NCBI GenBank assembly: GCA_030272155.1
Contig: CP126195.1
Location: 1,657,001 to 1,721,000 of the forward strand
From: Tetradesmus obliquus
Lineage: Eukaryota; Chlorophyta; Chlorophyceae; Sphaeropleales; Scenedesmaceae
DNA: 64,000 nt
Direction: 5' to 3'
In this document: piece by piece, positions 43,387-62,109 of the stretch
Layout of the letters: every line of letters begins with the position of its first letter
How positions within the stretch are numbered: the stretch's first letter is position 1
The notes under the pieces: generated by a model
Database searches by the model: none
What the model was told of the DNA's origin: nothing
The model's input: the letters and a program-made list of their open reading frames with translations, nothing else
Position numbers and translations under genes: made by a program

Positions 43387-44109
43387 CAGCTGGGTATGGT
43401 ACAAACGTAGCATCTGCATTTTGCAACAAATCAACACAGCTTGCAAGCAGACAGCCATGCTGGCATAGCAACCTGCTGTATGTGGCAGGCACAGTAAGGC
43501 ACAGCTGCCAGTGCTGCTGCTTTGGTTTGCTTGCATCCCAACTGCACAGCAGGGCCCCCACCTGCCAGCAGCAGCAGCTTCAAACTGCTAGTAATTTTGA
43601 GCTCCAGAATTCGCCTTGATCACACAAGAAGGATGTTTGCAGGAAACTGTGTAGAATACTAGTCCTCAACAAACTCTGTGCAGCCACACTAGCTGCACGC
43701 GCGCAGCAGCTGCCGGTGGGCCTGAAGCGGTGTTGCGCACTATGTAACAGATATGACAGTTGAAACTGTATGTGCAGCGCACAGCGCCAAGCAGCAGAGC
43801 GCAACAGCAGCGGCAGGGCACTTGGCACACCAGAACTGCAGTGCCTGATCAGCCAGCAAGGGAAGCCCAGAAGTATTACATTACACATCAAAACATGTTG
43901 CAGGCAGCAGCACCCACAGCAACACTCTACAGCGCAAGTTAACATATGTAACAGTCGAGTCGGGGCACTTCAGGGCAACGTGTTTTTAGCTCTTTTCTTG
44001 CAGTACACTGTGCCACTGCTAACAGCTCAAATTGATTTAGGTTCGTCGTTGAAAGCTTGACATTTATATGTAGGCCACTTGTTCGCTACGTTTGTACCAT
44101 GCCCAGCTG
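43387..44109 (-). repeat. 723-bp module E', inverted copy (left terminal repeat)
   Basis: Starts CAGCTGGGTATGGTACAAAC and ends with the complement of CAGCTGGGCATGGTACAAAC, so the module itself has about 25-bp inverted ends differing at one base. That base shows the whole module, ends included, is flipped relative to 47669-48391. Open frames inside (for example 43580-43945) are unrecognised and probably not genes. Confidence 0.88.
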
Positions 44110-44217: not shown

Positions 44218-46421
44218 ATGCCTGCAGGGGGGCTGTCCATGGTGCGCAAGCACCCTTCAGGATGGAAGAGCAACCGCAGCACCACGGCCATGAGGGTGGC
44301 GGCGGTGGTGTGTGTGATAATGGCTTTGACCACAGCTGACGAAAAGTTTACGCCCGCATATTATTACAGAGAGCAGTACCCTGACTACGCCAAGGAGGTA
44401 CACGGGGACCTGAACCGGTTCTGCAAACTTCATCACAAGAACTTCACAGCAAACGGCACAGTGGCTACACCCAAGCATGGCGGCAGGCCCTCAAATGTCC
44501 CACATGCTGTCGCCTTCCATGCCAGCACAATATTCAAGGCTGGCAAGGTGGTAAAGGCCTACCCATCGGCAGATTCAAAGAGAAAGGTTGATGTGCACGT
44601 GTGGTGGACTTCAATCGAAGTCGCATGTCAGGAAAATGACACACTGCGCCAGCTGTGCACTGACTACAACATCACACCCAAGAGACTGCTGAAGTACATG
44701 AAATGGGCTGACCCCGACCTGGTGCGCAGGAGAATAGATGTGAAGCTGGACTTGACAAAGATACAGAAACAAAGGCGAAAGGCAGCAGCTGCGGCGCTGT
44801 GGCAGAAGTACCAAAGTGACCCCGACATGCTGCAGCGCATATATTTCATTGATGAGTGCAAATTCTGGATGTCAGACCTGGCAGGCGGCTCCGTCAAGGT
44901 CTATTGTGATGCACACGATGAAAACGTGCATGCTGTGCTGCCATGCAAATGGATGCGCAAGGGCAAGGACGCAGAGCCGGTCAAGTTGCACTTTGTCTGC
45001 GCCGTCAACGCTGTGCACGGGCCCGTCTACTGCAAGTTTGTCACCGGCACAACAGACAACAAGGACCATGCTGGCAACCTCAATGTACCGTACATGGTGA
45101 GTGTGCGCTGCTACTGCGCAGGCGCCTGCCATCGAAAGACATGCCAGCCCTGCTGTACTGTGTAGTAACAGTCCCGCAGTGCTTTTTTTAGTGATGTAGT
45201 GAAGCTGCAGCGCTGCCCGTCCTCTGCTGTGAACATAACAGCAGAGTAACTTGGTGACAGTACAATGACACCACCTGCAGCAGCAAGCTGGAAACCAATG
45301 TGCAAGGATTGGTGCATGTCACATCCGCGCGTGCTCACGCGCAGCACACTGCCCCCTGGCTGCAGCCAGTTGTCATATGCTGCAGCGCAGAACTCAAAGT
45401 CGCGCTCCAGCACCTGCTGCCTGCTGCTGCTGTAATAACCCTTGTCATGACATGAGCCATCAGCTTGAATCAGCATGTTGTGCTGTGCATGGAGGAAATC
45501 AATCCGCCCATCCCACCAGTCCACTACTACCTGAGCACACATACTGCTGCTGATGCCTAACCAATACAGCATGCACACCAGCTGCTCCTCGCTTGTGTGC
45601 ATGTAGCCCATGCATGTGCCAACCATATCAGCCAGCACACATGCACACATCTTGCACTGAAGCGCTGCTGCTGTGGCGACTGCACGCGGCGCGCAGAACT
45701 TGAAGTGCTGCACACCTGGCAAGCAGACAGTCAAGCCCCAGAACAATCTCTGCCCCCTCATAGACTTGGTGATGTATCTGACCTTGTCTGCACTGAGCCT
45801 GATGTAGAAGCGTCCCATCGCATCCATCCACACCGCTGCGTTGCGCTCCTGCGCTGCTAACAAGGCTGCGCGCTGCCAATCCGGCAATTCTTGCACCTGC
45901 AGTTGAAGGACAAACCAACCCAGCAGGCCAAGAGCATGACTCAGCTGGAGTTTGTTCACTGCATGATGGAGATCAAAGACATAGCCGACCAACAGCAGGC
46001 GCAGCGCGGCACTACGCCGCTGTACATCTTTGACAACCCAAGTGTTCACCTGGGGAAGGATGGCCTACAGATGTTGGTTGCAGGTGGCATCAATGAAGAT
46101 CAACTGCTGCACATTGCACCCTACTCCCCAGATTTCAACAAGCCCATTGAACATGCATTTGGCAGCCTCAAAGCAGCCTTCCGCAACTACTTGTATAACA
46201 GCTGCCAGCTGGGTGGTGCTGATGTGAAGCCGCGAGACCTGCAGCACGGCCTGTACAACACCTTTATGAAGATCACAGCTGCATCTGTCATGGCTGATGT
46301 ATTGAAGCTGCCAGATTTGTGGAACATGGTGCGCAGCCGCAAGAGGAGTCTTTGTGTGTGCCGAGACGGGAAGCAGCGCCGCGGCACTGCTGGCGACTAC
46401 CCCAGGAAAGACCAGCGCTGA
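44218..46421 (+). CDS. DDE transposase, Tc1/mariner-like, copy 1 (465 aa, one intron)
   Basis: Exon 1 44218-45096 (293 codons), exon 2 45903-46421 (172 codons plus TGA), donor ATG|GTGAGT, acceptor ACCTGCAG|TTG, phase 0. Catalyses cut-and-paste movement of the element. The N-terminal part is basic with likely helix-turn-helix segments (for example LRQLCTDYNITPKRLLKYM). The catalytic core has FIDECKFWM (D212), LYIFDNPSVH (D337) and PYSPDFNKPIEHAFGSLK (E376), the standard DDE blocks of the Tc1/mariner superfamily; 38 residues separate the second Asp and the Glu. The start at 44218 is the first ATG in frame; MVRKHPSGWK seven codons later is an alternative. All catalytic residues are intact. The intron is occupied by the antisense open frame listed next. 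Confidence 0.88.
45111..46049 (-). CDS. Antisense PD-(D/E)xK (DUF559/Vsr-like) endonuclease-type ORF, copy 1
   Basis: A 312-codon frame lying opposite the transposase intron (45097-45902). It stops 14 bases inside the donor end. Codons 1-49 overlap transposase exon 2 and may be a shadow; Met75 (45827) is a start inside the intron. From about residue 152 the order of motifs matches the Vsr/DUF559 nuclease fold: SEEQLVCMLYWLG helix, VVDWWDGRIDF (D184), MLIQADGSCH (Q195, D197, H201), LERDFEF (D217) and GGSVLRVST. The N-terminal half, including FYIRLSADKVRYITKSMRGQ, is unrecognised. If expressed it would cut DNA, perhaps aiding spread or amplification of the element. Its expression and its own splice signals are unknown. 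The family call is by motif reading only. Confidence 0.6.
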   Translation of the reverse strand: MNTWVVKDVQRRSAALRLLLVGYVFDLHHAVNKLQLSHALGLLGWFVLQLQVQELPDWQRAALLAAQERNAAVWMDAMGRFYIRLSADKVRYITKSMRGQRLFWGLTVCLPGVQHFKFCAPRAVATAAALQCKMCACVLADMVGTCMGYMHTSEEQLVCMLYWLGISSSMCAQVVVDWWDGRIDFLHAQHNMLIQADGSCHDKGYYSSSRQQVLERDFEFCAAAYDNWLQPGGSVLRVSTRGCDMHQSLHIGFQLAAAGGVIVLSPSYSAVMFTAEDGQRCSFTTSLKKALRDCYYTVQQGWHVFRWQAPAQ

Positions 46422-47668
46422 GTCTGCTGTTGTGCTGCTGCATGGCATGTAGGGATTGTGGCTGTCAGCTGCATGCAAGATGGCTGGCCAGCAGTGCACA
46501 GGGTGTCACTCAGAGAGCCCTTGAGCTCACCTGTTTGAGGGCACCTGCGCTTGTCGCCGTCCTGCATGTTCGCACCGCCCGGGGCTTGGGAGGTGCTGGC
46601 ACCATGCTGCTGTAGGGTGGTTACTTCCTGGTGTTCACCTGAGAGCGAGTGTGGGAACAAAATGGCATGTTCAGAAGCTTATTGTATGAGTAAACTACAT
46701 GTGGATGTTGTGCTTTGGTGCTCAGACTTGTCAGGAGCGGTTCCTGCTTCAAACGACTGCTGCAAGGCAGCAAGGCACTTGGTGGCCATTTCACATACAG
46801 GCATTTGCAGTCATGCTGAATTGCCGAATGTAATGGTAAAATTACTGTCATAATTCAACTACGCTCGAAGCTCTTGAACATGGCTCCTGCTGCTGTCACT
46901 CGCGTTAATTGTGACGACTGTTGGCCTGCCAAGCGATATGCACGGAGCCTGCAAGAAACCTTGCGGTCGATTAACTTTTAAATTTGATGATTGATTTAAG
47001 CATGGCTTGAGCCGAAATAAACTGCGATATGGTGAAGAACTTCAAGACGGAAAGGTGCCCTGAAACAAGCCTGCTCCGAGCCACACAGCTGCCACGCTGC
47101 CAACTTATCATCGTCGACACATTATGCAACGTACCTTTGGTTGAAGCAGAAAACCAATCCTGACGGGCCCTCGCAAGCCCACGTTGCAGGTGAGCCTGAC
47201 GGGTCAACACGGATGTCCAGAGCACTGCAGCTCGATCGCGTTGCTGCAGCACCTGCATACAATTTGTTTTGAACATTGAACGACGTTAAACACAGCGCAG
47301 TGCTGAAAGGCTTCGCCAAAAAATTAGGTGGCAGCAGTGAGGCACCTGCTGGCACATGCTGCTGCTGTCACGCCCACCAACAACTGCAGTTGAAAAACAC
47401 ATGCCACCGTGATTCACAGCATACATAGCTGTAACGTTTCCTGTTGTCTGCTGCTGCTGCTGCTCCTGCCCAGGCAGATATCATATATTGCAAACAGTGC
47501 TACTGCCGCAGTAAAATCAGCTGCATACCCAGCAGCAGCAGGAGCACATCAGCCATAGCATAAAAAGGTAGGTGTGCACTTCAGGCACCAAGTCCAGGAA
47601 CAGCAACAGAAGGGATGCAGTGCAGGCTAAGAACTGCTGCAGCAAAGGCTGGCATGCAATCACAGTCT
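46422..47668. other. 3' non-coding part of transposon body
   Basis: Follows the transposase stop in every body. Short frames (for example 46551-46853 plus, 46971-47276 minus) show no domain. TGTAA at about 46830 could be the transposase polyadenylation signal. The last bases, ATCACAGTCT, form the body end. Confidence 0.55.
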
Positions 47669-48391
47669 CAGCTGGGCATGGTACAAACGTAGCGAACAAG
47701 TGGCCTACATATAAATGTCAAGCTTTCAACGACGAACCTAAATCAATTTGAGCTGTTAGCAGTGGCACAGTGTACTGCAAGAAAAGAGCTAAAAACACGT
47801 TGCCCTGAAGTGCCCCGACTCGACTGTTACATATGTTAACTTGCGCTGTAGAGTGTTGCTGTGGGTGCTGCTGCCTGCAACATGTTTTGATGTGTAATGT
47901 AATACTTCTGGGCTTCCCTTGCTGGCTGATCAGGCACTGCAGTTCTGGTGTGCCAAGTGCCCTGCCGCTGCTGTTGCGCTCTGCTGCTTGGCGCTGTGCG
48001 CTGCACATACAGTTTCAACTGTCATATCTGTTACATAGTGCGCAACACCGCTTCAGGCCCACCGGCAGCTGCTGCGCGCGTGCAGCTAGTGTGGCTGCAC
48101 AGAGTTTGTTGAGGACTAGTATTCTACACAGTTTCCTGCAAACATCCTTCTTGTGTGATCAAGGCGAATTCTGGAGCTCAAAATTACTAGCAGTTTGAAG
48201 CTGCTGCTGCTGGCAGGTGGGGGCCCTGCTGTGCAGTTGGGATGCAAGCAAACCAAAGCAGCAGCACTGGCAGCTGTGCCTTACTGTGCCTGCCACATAC
48301 AGCAGGTTGCTATGCCAGCATGGCTGTCTGCTTGCAAGCTGTGTTGATTTGTTGCAAAATGCAGATGCTACGTTTGTACCATACCCAGCTG
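47669..48391 (+). repeat. 723-bp module E, second copy
   Basis: Inverse orientation to 43387-44109, so that body 1 is flanked by 723-bp inverted repeats. It sits between GTCT of body 1 and AGAC of body 2. Confidence 0.9.
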
Positions 48392-48499: not shown

Positions 48500-50703
48500 A
48501 TGCCTGCAGGGGGGCTGTCCATGGTGCGCAAGCACCCTTCAGGATGGAAGAGCAACCGCAGCACCACGGCCATGAGGGTGGCGGCGGTGGTGTGTGTGAT
48601 AATGGCTTTGACCACAGCTGACGAAAAGTTTACGCCCGCATATTATTACAGAGAGCAGTACCCTGACTACGCCAAGGAGGTACACGGGGACCTGAACCGG
48701 TTCTGCAAACTTCATCACAAGAACTTCACAGCAAACGGCACAGTGGCTACACCCAAGCATGGCGGCAGGCCCTCAAATGTCCCACATGCTGTCGCCTTCC
48801 ATGCCAGCACAATATTCAAGGCTGGCAAGGTGGTAAAGGCCTACCCATCGGCAGATTCAAAGAGAAAGGTTGATGTGCACGTGTGGTGGACTTCAATCGA
48901 AGTCGCATGTCAGGAAAATGACACACTGCGCCAGCTGTGCACTGACTACAACATCACACCCAAGAGACTGCTGAAGTACATGAAATGGGCTGACCCCGAC
49001 CTGGTGCGCAGGAGAATAGATGTGAAGCTGGACTTGACAAAGATACAGAAACAAAGGCGAAAGGCAGCAGCTGCGGCGCTGTGGCAGAAGTACCAAAGTG
49101 ACCCCGACATGCTGCAGCGCATATATTTCATTGATGAGTGCAAATTCTGGATGTCAGACCTGGCAGGCGGCTCCGTCAAGGTCTATTGTGATGCACACGA
49201 TGAAAACGTGCATGCTGTGCTGCCATGCAAATGGATGCGCAAGGGCAAGGACGCAGAGCCGGTCAAGTTGCACTTTGTCTGCGCCGTCAACGCTGTGCAC
49301 GGGCCCGTCTACTGCAAGTTTGTCACCGGCACAACAGACAACAAGGACCATGCTGGCAACCTCAATGTACCGTACATGGTGAGTGTGCGCTGCTACTGCG
49401 CAGGCGCCTGCCATCGAAAGACATGCCAGCCCTGCTGTACTGTGTAGTAACAGTCCCGCAGTGCTTTTTTTAGTGATGTAGTGAAGCTGCAGCGCTGCCC
49501 GTCCTCTGCTGTGAACATAACAGCAGAGTAACTTGGTGACAGTACAATGACACCACCTGCAGCAGCAAGCTGGAAACCAATGTGCAAGGATTGGTGCATG
49601 TCACATCCGCGCGTGCTCACGCGCAGCACACTGCCCCCTGGCTGCAGCCAGTTGTCATATGCTGCAGCGCAGAACTCAAAGTCGCGCTCCAGCACCTGCT
49701 GCCTGCTGCTGCTGTAATAACCCTTGTCATGACATGAGCCATCAGCTTGAATCAGCATGTTGTGCTGTGCATGGAGGAAATCAATCCGCCCATCCCACCA
49801 GTCCACTACTACCTGAGCACACATACTGCTGCTGATGCCTAACCAATACAGCATGCACACCAGCTGCTCCTCGCTTGTGTGCATGTAGCCCATGCATGTG
49901 CCAACCATATCAGCCAGCACACATGCACACATCTTGCACTGAAGCGCTGCTGCTGTGGCGACTGCACGCGGCGCGCAGAACTTGAAGTGCTGCACACCTG
50001 GCAAGCAGACAGTCAAGCCCCAGAACAATCTCTGCCCCCTCATAGACTTGGTGATGTATCTGACCTTGTCTGCACTGAGCCTGATGTAGAAGCGTCCCAT
50101 CGCATCCATCCACACCGCTGCGTTGCGCTCCTGCGCTGCTAACAAGGCTGCGCGCTGCCAATCCGGCAATTCTTGCACCTGCAGTTGAAGGACAAACCAA
50201 CCCAGCAGGCCAAGAGCATGACTCAGCTGGAGTTTGTTCACTGCATGATGGAGATCAAAGACATAGCCGACCAACAGCAGGCGCAGCGCGGCACTACGCC
50301 GCTGTACATCTTTGACAACCCAAGTGTTCACCTGGGGAAGGATGGCCTACAGATGTTGGTTGCAGGTGGCATCAATGAAGATCAACTGCTGCACATTGCA
50401 CCCTACTCCCCAGATTTCAACAAGCCCATTGAACATGCATTTGGCAGCCTCAAAGCAGCCTTCCGCAACTACTTGTATAACAGCTGCCAGCTGGGTGGTG
50501 CTGATGTGAAGCCGCGAGACCTGCAGCACGGCCTGTACAACACCTTTATGAAGATCACAGCTGCATCTGTCATGGCTGATGTATTGAAGCTGCCAGATTT
50601 GTGGAACATGGTGCGCAGCCGCAAGAGGAGTCTTTGTGTGTGCCGAGACGGGAAGCAGCGCCGCGGCACTGCTGGCGACTACCCCAGGAAAGACCAGCGC
50701 TGA
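48500..50703 (+). CDS. DDE transposase, copy 2
   Basis: Exons 48500-49378 and 50185-50703. The encoded protein is the same as copy 1, with the same intron and catalytic residues. Offset from copy 1 is 4282 bases. Confidence 0.88.
49393..50331 (-). CDS. Antisense endonuclease-type ORF, copy 2
   Basis: Same 312-codon frame as copy 1, opposite the transposase intron. No disabling change. Confidence 0.6.
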   Translation of the reverse strand: MNTWVVKDVQRRSAALRLLLVGYVFDLHHAVNKLQLSHALGLLGWFVLQLQVQELPDWQRAALLAAQERNAAVWMDAMGRFYIRLSADKVRYITKSMRGQRLFWGLTVCLPGVQHFKFCAPRAVATAAALQCKMCACVLADMVGTCMGYMHTSEEQLVCMLYWLGISSSMCAQVVVDWWDGRIDFLHAQHNMLIQADGSCHDKGYYSSSRQQVLERDFEFCAAAYDNWLQPGGSVLRVSTRGCDMHQSLHIGFQLAAAGGVIVLSPSYSAVMFTAEDGQRCSFTTSLKKALRDCYYTVQQGWHVFRWQAPAQ

Positions 50704-52061: not shown

Positions 52062-54265
52062 ATGCCTGCAGGGGGGCTGTCCATGGTGCGCAAGCACCCT
52101 TCAGGATGGAAGAGCAACCGCAGCACCACGGCCATGAGGGTGGCGGCGGTGGTGTGTGTGATAATGGCTTTGACCACAGCTGACGAAAAGTTTACGCCCG
52201 CATATTATTACAGAGAGCAGTACCCTGACTACGCCAAGGAGGTACACGGGGACCTGAACCGGTTCTGCAAACTTCATCACAAGAACTTCACAGCAAACGG
52301 CACAGTGGCTACACCCAAGCATGGCGGCAGGCCCTCAAATGTCCCACATGCTGTCGCCTTCCATGCCAGCACAATATTCAAGGCTGGCAAGGTGGTAAAG
52401 GCCTACCCATCGGCAGATTCAAAGAGAAAGGTTGATGTGCACGTGTGGTGGACTTCAATCGAAGTCGCATGTCAGGAAAATGACACACTGCGCCAGCTGT
52501 GCACTGACTACAACATCACACCCAAGAGACTGCTGAAGTACATGAAATGGGCTGACCCCGACCTGGTGCGCAGGAGAATAGATGTGAAGCTGGACTTGAC
52601 AAAGATACAGAAACAAAGGCGAAAGGCAGCAGCTGCGGCGCTGTGGCAGAAGTACCAAAGTGACCCCGACATGCTGCAGCGCATATATTTCATTGATGAG
52701 TGCAAATTCTGGATGTCAGACCTGGCAGGCGGCTCCGTCAAGGTCTATTGTGATGCACACGATGAAAACGTGCATGCTGTGCTGCCATGCAAATGGATGC
52801 GCAAGGGCAAGGACGCAGAGCCGGTCAAGTTGCACTTTGTCTGCGCCGTCAACGCTGTGCACGGGCCCGTCTACTGCAAGTTTGTCACCGGCACAACAGA
52901 CAACAAGGACCATGCTGGCAACCTCAATGTACCGTACATGGTGAGTGTGCGCTGCTACTGCGCAGGCGCCTGCCATCGAAAGACATGCCAGCCCTGCTGT
53001 ACTGTGTAGTAACAGTCCCGCAGTGCTTTTTTTAGTGATGTAGTGAAGCTGCAGCGCTGCCCGTCCTCTGCTGTGAACATAACAGCAGAGTAACTTGGTG
53101 ACAGTACAATGACACCACCTGCAGCAGCAAGCTGGAAACCAATGTGCAAGGATTGGTGCATGTCACATCCGCGCGTGCTCACGCGCAGCACACTGCCCCC
53201 TGGCTGCAGCCAGTTGTCATATGCTGCAGCGCAGAACTCAAAGTCGCGCTCCAGCACCTGCTGCCTGCTGCTGCTGTAATAACCCTTGTCATGACATGAG
53301 CCATCAGCTTGAATCAGCATGTTGTGCTGTGCATGGAGGAAATCAATCCGCCCATCCCACCAGTCCACTACTACCTGAGCACACATACTGCTGCTGATGC
53401 CTAACCAATACAGCATGCACACCAGCTGCTCCTCGCTTGTGTGCATGTAGCCCATGCATGTGCCAACCATATCAGCCAGCACACATGCACACATCTTGCA
53501 CTGAAGCGCTGCTGCTGTGGCGACTGCACGCGGCGCGCAGAACTTGAAGTGCTGCACACCTGGCAAGCAGACAGTCAAGCCCCAGAACAATCTCTGCCCC
53601 CTCATAGACTTGGTGATGTATCTGACCTTGTCTGCACTGAGCCTGATGTAGAAGCGTCCCATCGCATCCATCCACACCGCTGCGTTGCGCTCCTGCGCTG
53701 CTAACAAGGCTGCGCGCTGCCAATCCGGCAATTCTTGCACCTGCAGTTGAAGGACAAACCAACCCAGCAGGCCAAGAGCATGACTCAGCTGGAGTTTGTT
53801 CACTGCATGATGGAGATCAAAGACATAGCCGACCAACAGCAGGCGCAGCGCGGCACTACGCCGCTGTACATCTTTGACAACCCAAGTGTTCACCTGGGGA
53901 AGGATGGCCTACAGATGTTGGTTGCAGGTGGCATCAATGAAGATCAACTGCTGCACATTGCACCCTACTCCCCAGATTTCAACAAGCCCATTGAACATGC
54001 ATTTGGCAGCCTCAAAGCAGCCTTCCGCAACTACTTGTATAACAGCTGCCAGCTGGGTGGTGCTGATGTGAAGCCGCGAGACCTGCAGCACGGCCTGTAC
54101 AACACCTTTATGAAGATCACAGCTGCATCTGTCATGGCTGATGTATTGAAGCTGCCAGATTTGTGGAACATGGTGCGCAGCCGCAAGAGGAGTCTTTGTG
54201 TGTGCCGAGACGGGAAGCAGCGCCGCGGCACTGCTGGCGACTACCCCAGGAAAGACCAGCGCTGA
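52062..54265 (+). CDS. DDE transposase, copy 3
   Basis: Exons 52062-52940 and 53747-54265; protein unchanged. This body joins the previous one through CTG with no E module, offset 3562. Confidence 0.88.
52955..53893 (-). CDS. Antisense endonuclease-type ORF, copy 3
   Basis: Intact 312-codon frame with the same residues as copy 1. Confidence 0.6.
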   Translation of the reverse strand: MNTWVVKDVQRRSAALRLLLVGYVFDLHHAVNKLQLSHALGLLGWFVLQLQVQELPDWQRAALLAAQERNAAVWMDAMGRFYIRLSADKVRYITKSMRGQRLFWGLTVCLPGVQHFKFCAPRAVATAAALQCKMCACVLADMVGTCMGYMHTSEEQLVCMLYWLGISSSMCAQVVVDWWDGRIDFLHAQHNMLIQADGSCHDKGYYSSSRQQVLERDFEFCAAAYDNWLQPGGSVLRVSTRGCDMHQSLHIGFQLAAAGGVIVLSPSYSAVMFTAEDGQRCSFTTSLKKALRDCYYTVQQGWHVFRWQAPAQ

Positions 54266-56343: not shown

Positions 56344-58547
56344 ATGCCTGCAGGGGGGCTGTCCATGGTGCGCAAGCACCCTTCAGGATGGAAGAGCAAC
56401 CGCAGCACCACGGCCATGAGGGTGGCGGCGGTGGTGTGTGTGATAATGGCTTTGACCACAGCTGACGAAAAGTTTACGCCCGCATATTATTACAGAGAGC
56501 AGTACCCTGACTACGCCAAGGAGGTACACGGGGACCTGAACCGGTTCTGCAAACTTCATCACAAGAACTTCACAGCAAACGGCACAGTGGCTACACCCAA
56601 GCATGGCGGCAGGCCCTCAAATGTCCCACATGCTGTCGCCTTCCATGCCAGCACAATATTCAAGGCTGGCAAGGTGGTAAAGGCCTACCCATCGGCAGAT
56701 TCAAAGAGAAAGGTTGATGTGCACGTGTGGTGGACTTCAATCGAAGTCGCATGTCAGGAAAATGACACACTGCGCCAGCTGTGCACTGACTACAACATCA
56801 CACCCAAGAGACTGCTGAAGTACATGAAATGGGCTGACCCCGACCTGGTGCGCAGGAGAATAGATGTGAAGCTGGACTTGACAAAGATACAGAAACAAAG
56901 GCGAAAGGCAGCAGCTGCGGCGCTGTGGCAGAAGTACCAAAGTGACCCCGACATGCTGCAGCGCATATATTTCATTGATGAGTGCAAATTCTGGATGTCA
57001 GACCTGGCAGGCGGCTCCGTCAAGGTCTATTGTGATGCACACGATGAAAACGTGCATGCTGTGCTGCCATGCAAATGGATGCGCAAGGGCAAGGACGCAG
57101 AGCCGGTCAAGTTGCACTTTGTCTGCGCCGTCAACGCTGTGCACGGGCCCGTCTACTGCAAGTTTGTCACCGGCACAACAGACAACAAGGACCATGCTGG
57201 CAACCTCAATGTACCGTACATGGTGAGTGTGCGCTGCTACTGCGCAGGCGCCTGCCATCGAAAGACATGCCAGCCCTGCTGTACTGTGTAGTAACAGTCC
57301 CGCAGTGCTTTTTTTAGTGATGTAGTGAAGCTGCAGCGCTGCCCGTCCTCTGCTGTGAACATAACAGCAGAGTAACTTGGTGACAGTACAATGACACCAC
57401 CTGCAGCAGCAAGCTGGAAACCAATGTGCAAGGATTGGTGCATGTCACATCCGCGCGTGCTCACGCGCAGCACACTGCCCCCTGGCTGCAGCCAGTTGTC
57501 ATATGCTGCAGCGCAGAACTCAAAGTCGCGCTCCAGCACCTGCTGCCTGCTGCTGCTGTAATAACCCTTGTCATGACATGAGCCATCAGCTTGAATCAGC
57601 ATGTTGTGCTGTGCATGGAGGAAATCAATCCGCCCATCCCACCAGTCCACTACTACCTGAGCACACATACTGCTGCTGATGCCTAACCAATACAGCATGC
57701 ACACCAGCTGCTCCTCGCTTGTGTGCATGTAGCCCATGCATGTGCCAACCATATCAGCCAGCACACATGCACACATCTTGCACTGAAGCGCTGCTGCTGT
57801 GGCGACTGCACGCGGCGCGCAGAACTTGAAGTGCTGCACACCTGGCAAGCAGACAGTCAAGCCCCAGAACAATCTCTGCCCCCTCATAGACTTGGTGATG
57901 TATCTGACCTTGTCTGCACTGAGCCTGATGTAGAAGCGTCCCATCGCATCCATCCACACCGCTGCGTTGCGCTCCTGCGCTGCTAACAAGGCTGCGCGCT
58001 GCCAATCCGGCAATTCTTGCACCTGCAGTTGAAGGACAAACCAACCCAGCAGGCCAAGAGCATGACTCAGCTGGAGTTTGTTCACTGCATGATGGAGATC
58101 AAAGACATAGCCGACCAACAGCAGGCGCAGCGCGGCACTACGCCGCTGTACATCTTTGACAACCCAAGTGTTCACCTGGGGAAGGATGGCCTACAGATGT
58201 TGGTTGCAGGTGGCATCAATGAAGATCAACTGCTGCACATTGCACCCTACTCCCCAGATTTCAACAAGCCCATTGAACATGCATTTGGCAGCCTCAAAGC
58301 AGCCTTCCGCAACTACTTGTATAACAGCTGCCAGCTGGGTGGTGCTGATGTGAAGCCGCGAGACCTGCAGCACGGCCTGTACAACACCTTTATGAAGATC
58401 ACAGCTGCATCTGTCATGGCTGATGTATTGAAGCTGCCAGATTTGTGGAACATGGTGCGCAGCCGCAAGAGGAGTCTTTGTGTGTGCCGAGACGGGAAGC
58501 AGCGCCGCGGCACTGCTGGCGACTACCCCAGGAAAGACCAGCGCTGA
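56344..58547 (+). CDS. DDE transposase, copy 4
   Basis: Exons 56344-57222 and 58029-58547; protein unchanged. Preceded by module E as in copy 2. Confidence 0.88.
57237..58175 (-). CDS. Antisense endonuclease-type ORF, copy 4
   Basis: Intact 312-codon frame with the same residues as copy 1. Confidence 0.6.
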   Translation of the reverse strand: MNTWVVKDVQRRSAALRLLLVGYVFDLHHAVNKLQLSHALGLLGWFVLQLQVQELPDWQRAALLAAQERNAAVWMDAMGRFYIRLSADKVRYITKSMRGQRLFWGLTVCLPGVQHFKFCAPRAVATAAALQCKMCACVLADMVGTCMGYMHTSEEQLVCMLYWLGISSSMCAQVVVDWWDGRIDFLHAQHNMLIQADGSCHDKGYYSSSRQQVLERDFEFCAAAYDNWLQPGGSVLRVSTRGCDMHQSLHIGFQLAAAGGVIVLSPSYSAVMFTAEDGQRCSFTTSLKKALRDCYYTVQQGWHVFRWQAPAQ

Positions 58548-59905: not shown

Positions 59906-62109
59906 ATGCCTGCAGGGGGGCTGTCCATGGTGCGCAAGCACCCTTCAGGATGGAAGAGCAACCGCAGCACCACGGCCATGAGGGTGGCGGCGGTGGTGTG
60001 TGTGATAATGGCTTTGACCACAGCTGACGAAAAGTTTACGCCCGCATATTATTACAGAGAGCAGTACCCTGACTACGCCAAGGAGGTACACGGGGACCTG
60101 AACCGGTTCTGCAAACTTCATCACAAGAACTTCACAGCAAACGGCACAGTGGCTACACCCAAGCATGGCGGCAGGCCCTCAAATGTCCCACATGCTGTCG
60201 CCTTCCATGCCAGCACAATATTCAAGGCTGGCAAGGTGGTAAAGGCCTACCCATCGGCAGATTCAAAGAGAAAGGTTGATGTGCACGTGTGGTGGACTTC
60301 AATCGAAGTCGCATGTCAGGAAAATGACACACTGCGCCAGCTGTGCACTGACTACAACATCACACCCAAGAGACTGCTGAAGTACATGAAATGGGCTGAC
60401 CCCGACCTGGTGCGCAGGAGAATAGATGTGAAGCTGGACTTGACAAAGATACAGAAACAAAGGCGAAAGGCAGCAGCTGCGGCGCTGTGGCAGAAGTACC
60501 AAAGTGACCCCGACATGCTGCAGCGCATATATTTCATTGATGAGTGCAAATTCTGGATGTCAGACCTGGCAGGCGGCTCCGTCAAGGTCTATTGTGATGC
60601 ACACGATGAAAACGTGCATGCTGTGCTGCCATGCAAATGGATGCGCAAGGGCAAGGACGCAGAGCCGGTCAAGTTGCACTTTGTCTGCGCCGTCAACGCT
60701 GTGCACGGGCCCGTCTACTGCAAGTTTGTCACCGGCACAACAGACAACAAGGACCATGCTGGCAACCTCAATGTACCGTACATGGTGAGTGTGCGCTGCT
60801 ACTGCGCAGGCGCCTGCCATCGAAAGACATGCCAGCCCTGCTGTACTGTGTAGTAACAGTCCCGCAGTGCTTTTTTTAGTGATGTAGTGAAGCTGCAGCG
60901 CTGCCCGTCCTCTGCTGTGAACATAACAGCAGAGTAACTTGGTGACAGTACAATGACACCACCTGCAGCAGCAAGCTGGAAACCAATGTGCAAGGATTGG
61001 TGCATGTCACATCCGCGCGTGCTCACGCGCAGCACACTGCCCCCTGGCTGCAGCCAGTTGTCATATGCTGCAGCGCAGAACTCAAAGTCGCGCTCCAGCA
61101 CCTGCTGCCTGCTGCTGCTGTAATAACCCTTGTCATGACATGAGCCATCAGCTTGAATCAGCATGTTGTGCTGTGCATGGAGGAAATCAATCCGCCCATC
61201 CCACCAGTCCACTACTACCTGAGCACACATACTGCTGCTGATGCCTAACCAATACAGCATGCACACCAGCTGCTCCTCGCTTGTGTGCATGTAGCCCATG
61301 CATGTGCCAACCATATCAGCCAGCACACATGCACACATCTTGCACTGAAGCGCTGCTGCTGTGGCGACTGCACGCGGCGCGCAGAACTTGAAGTGCTGCA
61401 CACCTGGCAAGCAGACAGTCAAGCCCCAGAACAATCTCTGCCCCCTCATAGACTTGGTGATGTATCTGACCTTGTCTGCACTGAGCCTGATGTAGAAGCG
61501 TCCCATCGCATCCATCCACACCGCTGCGTTGCGCTCCTGCGCTGCTAACAAGGCTGCGCGCTGCCAATCCGGCAATTCTTGCACCTGCAGTTGAAGGACA
61601 AACCAACCCAGCAGGCCAAGAGCATGACTCAGCTGGAGTTTGTTCACTGCATGATGGAGATCAAAGACATAGCCGACCAACAGCAGGCGCAGCGCGGCAC
61701 TACGCCGCTGTACATCTTTGACAACCCAAGTGTTCACCTGGGGAAGGATGGCCTACAGATGTTGGTTGCAGGTGGCATCAATGAAGATCAACTGCTGCAC
61801 ATTGCACCCTACTCCCCAGATTTCAACAAGCCCATTGAACATGCATTTGGCAGCCTCAAAGCAGCCTTCCGCAACTACTTGTATAACAGCTGCCAGCTGG
61901 GTGGTGCTGATGTGAAGCCGCGAGACCTGCAGCACGGCCTGTACAACACCTTTATGAAGATCACAGCTGCATCTGTCATGGCTGATGTATTGAAGCTGCC
62001 AGATTTGTGGAACATGGTGCGCAGCCGCAAGAGGAGTCTTTGTGTGTGCCGAGACGGGAAGCAGCGCCGCGGCACTGCTGGCGACTACCCCAGGAAAGAC
62101 CAGCGCTGA
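59906..62109 (+). CDS. DDE transposase, copy 5
   Basis: Exons 59906-60784 and 61591-62109; protein unchanged. Preceded by a direct body-CTG-body junction. Confidence 0.88.
60799..61737 (-). CDS. Antisense endonuclease-type ORF, copy 5
   Basis: Intact 312-codon frame with the same residues as copy 1. Confidence 0.6.
   Translation of the reverse strand: MNTWVVKDVQRRSAALRLLLVGYVFDLHHAVNKLQLSHALGLLGWFVLQLQVQELPDWQRAALLAAQERNAAVWMDAMGRFYIRLSADKVRYITKSMRGQRLFWGLTVCLPGVQHFKFCAPRAVATAAALQCKMCACVLADMVGTCMGYMHTSEEQLVCMLYWLGISSSMCAQVVVDWWDGRIDFLHAQHNMLIQADGSCHDKGYYSSSRQQVLERDFEFCAAAYDNWLQPGGSVLRVSTRGCDMHQSLHIGFQLAAAGGVIVLSPSYSAVMFTAEDGQRCSFTTSLKKALRDCYYTVQQGWHVFRWQAPAQ

Follow-up and report, generated by a model that had tools for sequence, protein, structure and literature searches.

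A candidate two-gene DNA transposon of the alga Tetradesmus obliquus with an IS630-like transposase and an antisense DUF559-like nuclease gene in its intron

Transposases of the IS630-Tc1-mariner group have about 34–41 residues between their last two catalytic residues and leave a TA target-site duplication, and the Tc1/mariner-IS630 transposases cut both DNA strands by transposase alone. The YqaJ exonuclease domain is of the PD-(D/E)XK class. This domain is found in the nuclease-type protein of a second frame in ISL2EU, a eukaryotic DDE transposon whose transposase belongs to the PHIS superfamily, and the available text gives it two ORFs and describes no antisense interlocking (PMC4482050). 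The transposase of bacterial Tn7 is heteromeric, made up of the DDE protein TnsB and a distinct endonuclease, TnsA, which nicks just outside the 5′ ends, according to the available part of PMC11406308. KolobokP elements of animals, as the accessible text of PMC9587614 describes them, combine a Kolobok transposase of the DDD/E type with an added His-Me finger endonuclease encoded downstream. Their long terminal repeats, each a few hundred bp in length, have short inverted ends of their own and lie around an internal region, they occur as LTDR-INT-LTDR units with direct LTDRs, as multimers, and as direct INT-INT joins, and nuclease-induced multimerisation has been proposed for them (PMC9587614). 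Finally, spliceosomal GT-AG introns of mirusviruses (shintrons) encode HNH, GIY-YIG, VSR-like, and PD-(D/E)XK endonucleases, and the available text notes that eukaryotic genomes apparently have no equivalents (PMC12768974).

Here we analyze an element in a window of 64,000 nucleotides (the whole stretch of DNA under study), for which we found no published description among open-licence PMC papers. Our favored explanation, to which we give somewhat better than even chances, is a two-gene DNA transposon in which an IS630-like DD38E transposase and an antisense DUF559-like nuclease are interlocked and the nuclease builds arrays.

Transposase exon 1 (44239..45096, + strand) is an ORF encoding 286 aa from MVRKHP, with an alternative in-frame ATG possible at 44218, and it carries the first catalytic Asp, D205, in a FIDECK motif. 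Exon 2 (45903..46421, + strand; 172 aa and a stop) supplies the second Asp (D330, in IFDNPS) and the Glu (E369, in PIEHAF). This triad, with 38 residues from the second Asp to the Glu, and a YSPDFNKPIE motif are like those of the IS630-Tc1-mariner group, as are weak profile matches: with the two exons scored separately, exon 2 matched Pfam DDE_3 at 24.1 bits (E 3.5e-5), below the curated cut-off of 28.6 bits, and NCBIfam IS630 NF033545 at 20.7 of 100 bits (E 2.4e-4), also under the curated cut-off. An IS630-like DD38E transposase is the best explanation of these features. Unlike the group as described, the element has a nuclease-bearing intron and terminal repeats of ~720 bp, and the one insertion examined, a single copy on C7 that reads ATC/CAGCTGGG...CCCAGCTG/ATC, has perhaps a 3-bp duplication and lacks a TA target-site duplication.

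The two exons are separated by an 806-bp phase 0 intron (45097..45902, + strand; GTGAGT...CTGCAG) that follows residue 286 of 458 and thus lies between the first and second catalytic Asp. If it were retained, it would add 11 sense-frame stops, and its length leaves a remainder of 2 when divided by 3. The original prediction, that every complete body has such an intron with an antisense open frame, holds for all five in the window, which are identical across 3555 bp and have the further introns at 49379..50184, 52941..53746, 57223..58028, and 60785..61590 (all + strand). We call these copies family A. In a second family, B, the transposase is 67–69% identical to that of A (68% in exon 1) and nuclease exon 2 is 55–58% identical, and both the donor and the acceptor of the intron are conserved. 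The alignment of all ten transposase proteins examined (nine besides P0027, which is from this genome) extends to one common donor codon, where each reads V-S, which fits a GTnAGy donor, and most stop or diverge shortly beyond it. The intron is thus probably spliced, as read from these sequences. A search of the genome for spliced A/B junctions, with 1 mismatch allowed and a pattern that excluded family C (described below), found 0, and a group I or II intron was rejected, with Rfam giving two matches only, both far below threshold.

The opposite strand carries an open frame of 317 aa, counted from stop to stop, between 46064 and 45111, and the portion kept in relatives, 45896-45114, encodes 261 aa that end at a TAG stop (45113-45111); we refer to 45111..45896 (− strand) as nuclease exon 2. 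Among 8000 scored candidates from public protein collections, 26 relatives of the antisense protein were found, a few of them so close that the same or a sister species could be their source, and a separate search gave 22. The original prediction had looked to diverged relatives for antisense constraint, and this is what we observe between family A and the family B copy B_C4. The two differ at 228 nt across 260 codons, and the antisense frame is still open, an outcome seen in 0.05% of simulations, while the remaining five frames of the same DNA have 2–14 stops each. Amino acid identity in the antisense frame is 0.565, where the null expectation is 0.456 ± 0.020, and 0 of 2000 simulations reached the observed value, which rules out a chance ORF. 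Because relatives exist and the frame has been kept open against the family B differences, we conclude from these comparisons that the antisense gene is coding. Among close copies, the nuclease shows little or no purifying signal as estimated by omega, which is 1.45 (12 changes) for a pair of A copies and 0.60 for B_C4 vs. B_C6a, the latter not above the null (P 0.11). Spliced copies of the nuclease were not found in the genome.

The antisense protein has, in order, E103, D133-F134, and Q144-x-D146-G147-x-x-H150, in the same order and register as the E...D-F...(E/Q)-x-D-G-x-x-H...R core of DUF559 (PF04480; E. coli YcjD), with Gln (Q144) in place of the usual catalytic Glu. It differs from DUF559 in that substitution, in an extra N-terminal part bearing a C-x-x-C pair, in being a gene of a eukaryotic transposon, and in its Pfam score, 13.9 bits for the window nuclease, which is under the 20.6-bit gathering cut-off. 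DUF559 matches at E ≤ 1 were obtained for 16 of 23 family members (best E 0.0018), and the family C nuclease had no Pfam match. An hhalign comparison with DUF559 scored 27.9, and none of 150 column shuffles reached it (mean 13.7, sd 2.8, maximum 26.9); the program's own probability was only 14–16%. Against a Vsr profile built from just 6 sequences, the score was 13.4, and 77 of 150 shuffles equaled it. Thus, of the DUF559/Vsr-like nuclease originally proposed, the DUF559 core stands, at a score below the Pfam cut-off, and a special relationship to Vsr was rejected. The protein resembles DUF559/PD-(D/E)XK nucleases, and we infer from the motif that it has nuclease activity. Two PDB searches by sequence each gave a single match (E 1.5 and 0.84), neither convincing.

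The Gln, together with core residues missing from a few members (in the 23-member alignment, D146 to G in two, H150 to R in one, and E103 to D in one), fits a catalytically dead or decaying nuclease that acts as a DNA-binding repressor. The A-B omega, 0.54–0.58 for the nuclease vs. 0.28–0.50 for the transposase, and the weakness or lack of constraint among close copies point the same way, and the overlapping antisense transcripts to be expected at such a locus would suit a variant in which antisense RNA silences the transposase. However, all 8 selected members, with identities down to 28%, keep the seven core residues named above unchanged, and the nuclease frame has no stop in 136 of 150 scored genome copies (the best 150 of 281 candidates). 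We therefore regard a dead nuclease or a silencing RNA as quite improbable.

As to the source of the nuclease, a phage or viral origin was considered and set aside, with no relative confirmed in viral contigs or prokaryote genomes in scans by two short peptide patterns each; a like scan of viral contigs confirmed no relative of the transposase. PHROGs (best E 0.046) and PADLOC held nothing convincing. The genome has no DUF559 match at E ≤ 0.1, but the same search misses the nuclease itself, so this carries little weight against a host gene as the source.

The original prediction placed the nuclease within the transposase intron. Its catalytic core does lie there, in a gene that we read as coding, but the gene probably extends beyond the intron, because a candidate 25-codon exon 1 (MVPAPPKPRAVRTCRTATSAGALKQ, donor GTGAGC) is present at 46605-46531 (46531..46605, − strand). 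Up to 1500 nt from the acceptor, this is the sole phase 0 candidate in family A with an ATG, an open frame, and a donor. It is also the single phase 0 candidate in B_C4, has equal length and place in B_C4 and B_C6a, and by eye is similar to the peptide with which P0018, a protein from another source, begins. A first exon belonging to the antisense gene thus seems to lie outside the transposase intron, and the spliced nuclease would have 286 aa. The proposed nuclease intron (45897..46530, − strand; 634 bp, and 633–647 bp in four other A/B copies) would contain transposase exon 2 in antisense, and the palindrome CTGCAG (45897..45902, both strands) would serve as the 3′ splice site of both genes. 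In families A and B, we propose, the second exon of each gene lies within the intron of the other, with both acceptors in CTGCAG. In family C, the sense acceptor and a candidate antisense acceptor are 16 bp apart rather than in one palindrome, and several exon 1 candidates were seen there, of which none was convincing.

Alternatively, the antisense gene could be a single exon that starts inside the intron, at ATG 45827 in family A, the outside exon being a coincidence. This ATG would give 238 aa with the entire nuclease core, and the candidate exon 1 does not exceed chance in its conservation between families A and B (P 0.26 and 0.30), doing so only for B_C4 vs. B_C6a (P 0.0055). However, such a start loses the 23 residues that extend to the acceptor and are common to full-length relatives, and family B has no ATG there, so that a start within transposase exon 2 would be needed; B does have an unspliced in-frame ATG upstream. 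The exon 1 candidate, on the other hand, is unique in A, common to B, and has its similar peptide in P0018, and we consider the single-exon gene unlikely. The apparent first exon and the interlock of the two genes are what we propose as newly seen here and, if confirmed, interlocked exons would be a compact means of making two genes inseparable. More tentatively, and at rather less than even chances, the mutual interlock, with one palindromic hexamer providing each strand with its 3′ splice site, may be a built-in genetic lock, linking transposase to nuclease and fixing their ratio, in an element that independently reinvented, in the IS630 lineage, the KolobokP strategy of transposition plus nuclease-induced multimerisation.

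The two genes are also found together in family C, which is 28–30% identical to A in the transposase and 29% in the nuclease, and has the nuclease antisense in the corresponding intron (808 bp). As judged by these sequences, the pairing is old, because the antisense nuclease still occupies the matching intron of family C when both proteins have diverged this far, and an old and conserved pairing suggests that transposase and nuclease work together. The tail of a distant relative, P0036 (33%), matches the family C intron in a frame of the sense strand (E 2e-9 among six frames).

The age of the pairing bears on whether the intron is instead a spliceosomal homing intron like the mirusvirus shintrons, spread by a selfish nuclease that cuts the empty site in intronless transposase copies. 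In favor of this, the intron is of the GT-AG type, bears a PD-(D/E)XK-type gene, splits a conserved catalytic core, and gave no group I/II match near threshold, and PD-(D/E)XK and VSR-like endonucleases are among those reported for the viral introns (PMC12768974, in the part available). Here, however, the host is a transposase gene of a cellular genome, and the gene is antisense. A complete endonuclease gene in the intron would be expected of a shintron; here the catalytic core is inside and the proposed first exon outside, in which case the nuclease gene would not be carried whole by the intron. Related transposases without the intron, sought as the original prediction had suggested, did not appear, with no empty A/B site in the genome and the donor read in 10 of 10 proteins. 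Given the outside exon, the lack of an intronless A/B junction, and a pairing that persists to ~29% identity, the homing-type parasite that the original prediction had entertained is disfavored, and we give it little credence. The intron is nonetheless a candidate endonuclease-bearing spliceosomal intron in a cellular genome, inside a transposon. A helper in copying is favored over such a parasite.

The helper role in amplification is plausible and is strengthened by the parallel with KolobokP. The element forms tandem arrays, with INT-INT joins and multimers, and has a ~720-bp terminal repeat (43387..44109, + strand) with 25-bp inverted ends (CAGCTGGGYATGGTACAAACGTAGC), to which a family B segment is homologous at 71–74%. 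As in KolobokP, a DDE-type transposase is thus accompanied by an endonuclease-like gene and by long terminal repeats on either side of an internal region. In contrast to the account in PMC9587614, the transposase is IS630-like (by its weak DDE_3 and IS630 matches), the nuclease is PD-(D/E)XK-like, antisense, and intronic, the host is an alga, and the 720-bp segment occurs in both orientations, as with the opposite copy (47669..48391, − strand) between bodies 1 and 2. By analogy, we suggest that the element works like KolobokP and do not file it as a member. If the parallel is real, two DDE superfamilies have each gained a second nuclease, long terminal repeats, and tandem arrays, so the role of the second nuclease could be tested by comparison.

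Given splicing on both strands and an active enzyme, both of which we infer along with cut site and role, the nuclease would be a stable component of the element, most likely acting on the element's own DNA by cutting in or near the ~720-bp terminal repeats or the transposon ends. Repair from a neighboring copy or a circular intermediate would then add units and give tandem arrays, and the transposase would move single units and excise 720-bp repeats. The nuclease might instead be a TnsA-like partner that completes excision by cutting the strand left uncut by the DDE transposase, the part that TnsA plays for TnsB, with arrays arising incidentally through ordinary recombination. All three families examined do combine a DDE gene with a PD-(D/E)XK-like one, much as Tn7 combines two such proteins, but transposases of this type are known to cut both strands unaided, and an IS630-type transposase elsewhere in the genome (L074, a 391-aa single frame) has no nuclease match in its 3.3-kb locus. 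The Tn7 proteins also differ in that the transposase is unrelated, the genes are not interlocked, and end cleavage has been shown (PMC11406308, in the part available). We regard a TnsA-like role as unlikely. With regard to array building by the nuclease, a 59-row derivative array of family C lacks the nuclease altogether. In cis, the nuclease is dispensable in that array, and arrays can form in its absence. In the C17 array, a stop codon in the nuclease was considered as inactivation of the gene and rejected, as in the one copy inspected only the last 7 residues are lost.

The window occupies positions 1657001-1721000 of contig C5 in a 104.66-Mb genome of 17 contigs, and from 43387 onward it is filled by a tandem array of the transposon we call family A. 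Its five complete bodies, the internal units carrying both genes, are identical over 3555 bp. From 43387 to 64000 the array unit alternates between 4282 bp, which includes a 720-bp terminal repeat segment, and 3562 bp, where bodies join directly; the segment runs forward at 43387, and its copies at 47669 and 55513 lie in reverse. The direct joins (51954, 59798, and 63360) read ACAGTCT-CTG-AGACC, and the CTG left at the joint would be three leftover bases like a segment end, resembling an excision footprint. A single-copy insertion on contig C7 consists of the 720-bp segment, the 3562-bp body, and a second 720-bp segment, with 25-bp inverted repeats ending its segments and ATC flanking both sides. 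A segment homologous to the 720-bp one, 71-74% identical, is present in family B, a diverged family of this genome.

Each body contains a two-exon transposase gene on the plus strand (exon 1, 44239-45096; exon 2, 45903-46421), interrupted by an 806-bp phase 0 intron (45097-45902) that starts with GTGAGT and ends with CTGCAG. The intron length is not a multiple of three, and retention would bring in 11 stops. The intron falls after residue 286, separating the first from the second catalytic Asp of the triad D205, D330, and E369 (D330-E369 spacing, 38 residues), and thus a working transposase requires its removal. Exon 2 matches DDE_3 weakly (24.1 bits, cut-off 28.6), as it does IS630. A protein search returned 10 transposase relatives (P0027-P0036); P0027 is this genome's own protein, and the other nine are 33-74% identical. 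All 10 have V-S at the donor codon, matching GTnAGy, although the codon itself is not visible in a protein, and most of them stop or diverge shortly past this point. The genome has other IS630/DDE_3 transposases (L073-L077); the one at L074 is a single 391-aa frame with no intron, and no such nuclease was found within that locus.

The original prediction placed a coding frame antisense within the transposase intron, and this is borne out: the antisense gene is genuine. On the minus strand its frame runs open from 46064 to 45111; stops in each of the other five frames number 2 to 14. When the 228 differences between family A and the family B copy on contig C4 were randomly redistributed over 260 codons in 2000 simulations, the observed nuclease identity of 0.565 was reached in none (simulated, 0.456 +/- 0.020), and the absence of stops compares with a simulated mean of 6.5 and with 0.05% of simulations stop-free. 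In three A-B pairs, omega is 0.54-0.58 for the nuclease versus 0.28-0.50 for the transposase, so constraint is weaker on the nuclease. Close copies show weak constraint or none: two family A copies give an omega of 1.45 from 12 changes, and the family B copies on C4 and C6, compared with each other, do not exceed the null (P 0.11). The C6 copy has an open nuclease frame and broken transposase frames. Nuclease relatives number 22 by protein search and 26 by a profile search that scored 8000 candidates, at 30-93% identity; seven are named very-short-patch-repair endonuclease by their source. A few, such as P0001 (93% to family A) and P0011 (97-99% to family B), lie so near the genome's own copies that this species or a sister species may be their source. 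Two genome searches combined place nuclease copies on 14 of 17 contigs, and the frame is stop-free in 136 of 150 scored copies (the best 150 of 281 candidates). On C17 (L103, 931051-1034165), a TGA interrupts all 11 nuclease rows scored. The one copy that was read has it seven residues before the normal end, so at least one of the 14 stops costs only the last seven residues, and these copies may still be functional. At L069, a family B locus (C6, 5538501-5542500), the transposase frames are broken and the nuclease frame is open, with the upstream exon candidate described below intact.

The protein was predicted to be a DUF559/Vsr-like nuclease, and of that assignment the DUF559 part is the one that found support. 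E103, D133-F134, Q144, D146-G147, and H150 are invariant in all eight members chosen for alignment, down to 28% identity, in the DUF559 order E...D-F...E-x-D-G-x-x-H with the second Glu replaced by Gln. Across a 23-row alignment, D133 and Q144 are invariant, D146 is missing in two rows and H150 in one, and E103 is Asp in one. The DUF559 score is 13.9 bits, below the cut-off of 20.6. With hhalign, the family scored 27.9 against 13 DUF559 proteins, reached by none of 150 column shuffles (maximum 26.9), with the program's own probability just 14-16%. For six Vsr proteins the comparison did not rise above its shuffles, of which 77 of 150 reached the real score, and no convincing match to the nuclease was found among PDB chains by sequence. 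A nuclease fold is likely and activity plausible; a dead or regulatory protein is also possible, and the Gln in the core and the relaxed constraint speak for it. Ahead of the core, in exon 2 on the minus strand, is a conserved C...C-x-x-C that suggests a zinc site, and P0026 weakly matches a treble-clef family (E 0.18).

Full-length relatives resemble the nuclease right up to the intron 3' end; family A lacks an ATG there. A candidate first exon lies 634 bp upstream (46605-46531, minus strand), with an ATG, 25 open codons, a GTGAGC donor, and phase 0 with the acceptor of exon 2 (45896-45111). It is shared at equal length by family A and the B copies on C4 and C6, and is the only phase 0 candidate within 1500 nt in all but the C6 copy, which has two. 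It is found in 76 of 77 intron instances with A/B splice words (the window plus L001-L072, many overlapping; eight distinct sequences), and L072, the one instance lacking it, carries in addition a stop 251 codons into nuclease exon 2. P0018, from another source, opens with a peptide that looks alike and continues with V-S, like a read-through donor, as judged by eye and unscored. Between A and B, exon 1 is conserved no better than chance (P 0.26, 0.30), the two B copies being the sole pair above it (P 0.0055), and another in-frame ATG in family B counts against the model, as does family C, where several candidate first exons turned up and none is convincing. If the model is right, each intron would house the second exon of the opposite gene, and both genes would use CTGCAG at 45897-45902 as their 3' splice site. 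In the genome, neither the transposase gene nor the nuclease gene has a spliced A/B copy that the searches could find. In the family B locus L057, transposase exon 2 starts with the lysine-rich LKRQKKKKNVK, a possible nuclear localisation signal, and the same bases on the opposite strand form a pyrimidine tract ahead of the nuclease acceptor. The suggestion of a homing-type parasite is disfavoured. A homing intron like those described for mirusviruses (PMC12768974) would need the intron to hold the whole gene and target sites to stand empty, neither of which is supported so far: the candidate first exon lies outside the intron, and no intronless A/B transposase junction turned up in the genome.

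The pairing of transposase and nuclease is old. Family B (C4, C13, C10, C6, and C14) shares the layout, its transposase being 67-69% and its nuclease 55-58% identical. Family C, two C16 copies (L098 and L099) 99.6% alike over 3300 bp, carries the nuclease antisense inside a GT-AG intron of 808 bp in the matching position; identity is 28% for transposase exon 1 (E 2e-25), 30% for exon 2 (E 4e-10), and 29% for the nuclease (E 2e-18). The tail of P0036, the most distant transposase protein, matches the family C intron in a sense-strand frame (E 2e-9, six frames compared), and so its intron probably holds the nuclease too.

DDE transposons carrying a second nuclease are already known, as described for KolobokP (PMC9587614) and for ISL2EU, with its YqaJ frame (PMC4482050), and so are nucleases inside spliceosomal introns of viruses; we found no description in open-licence literature of an antisense, intron-sharing layout with a DUF559-like nuclease. 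The animal transposon KolobokP combines a DDD/E transposase and a His-Me homing-type endonuclease with long terminal direct repeats that have inverted ends of their own, and it forms multimers and direct INT-INT (body-body) joins; transposition plus nuclease-induced unequal crossover is proposed for it (PMC9587614). Our element is strikingly similar in its repeats with inverted ends, DDE transposase with nuclease, multimers, and direct joins, but the two are unlike in transposase superfamily and in nuclease fold, and the resemblance would therefore be convergent. This convergence is our best argument that the nuclease may serve multiplication of the element. A TnsA-like role (PMC11406308) is another possibility. 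An array without the nuclease, L102 (C16, 1031874-1130295), bears on its part in multiplication: here a family C derivative is repeated in 59 tandem rows, with a period of mostly 1689 bp, next to a family C copy that is complete (1132159). The derivative lacks the nuclease and DDE core and keeps the first 148 transposase residues, so the nuclease would be dispensable in cis for array multiplication.
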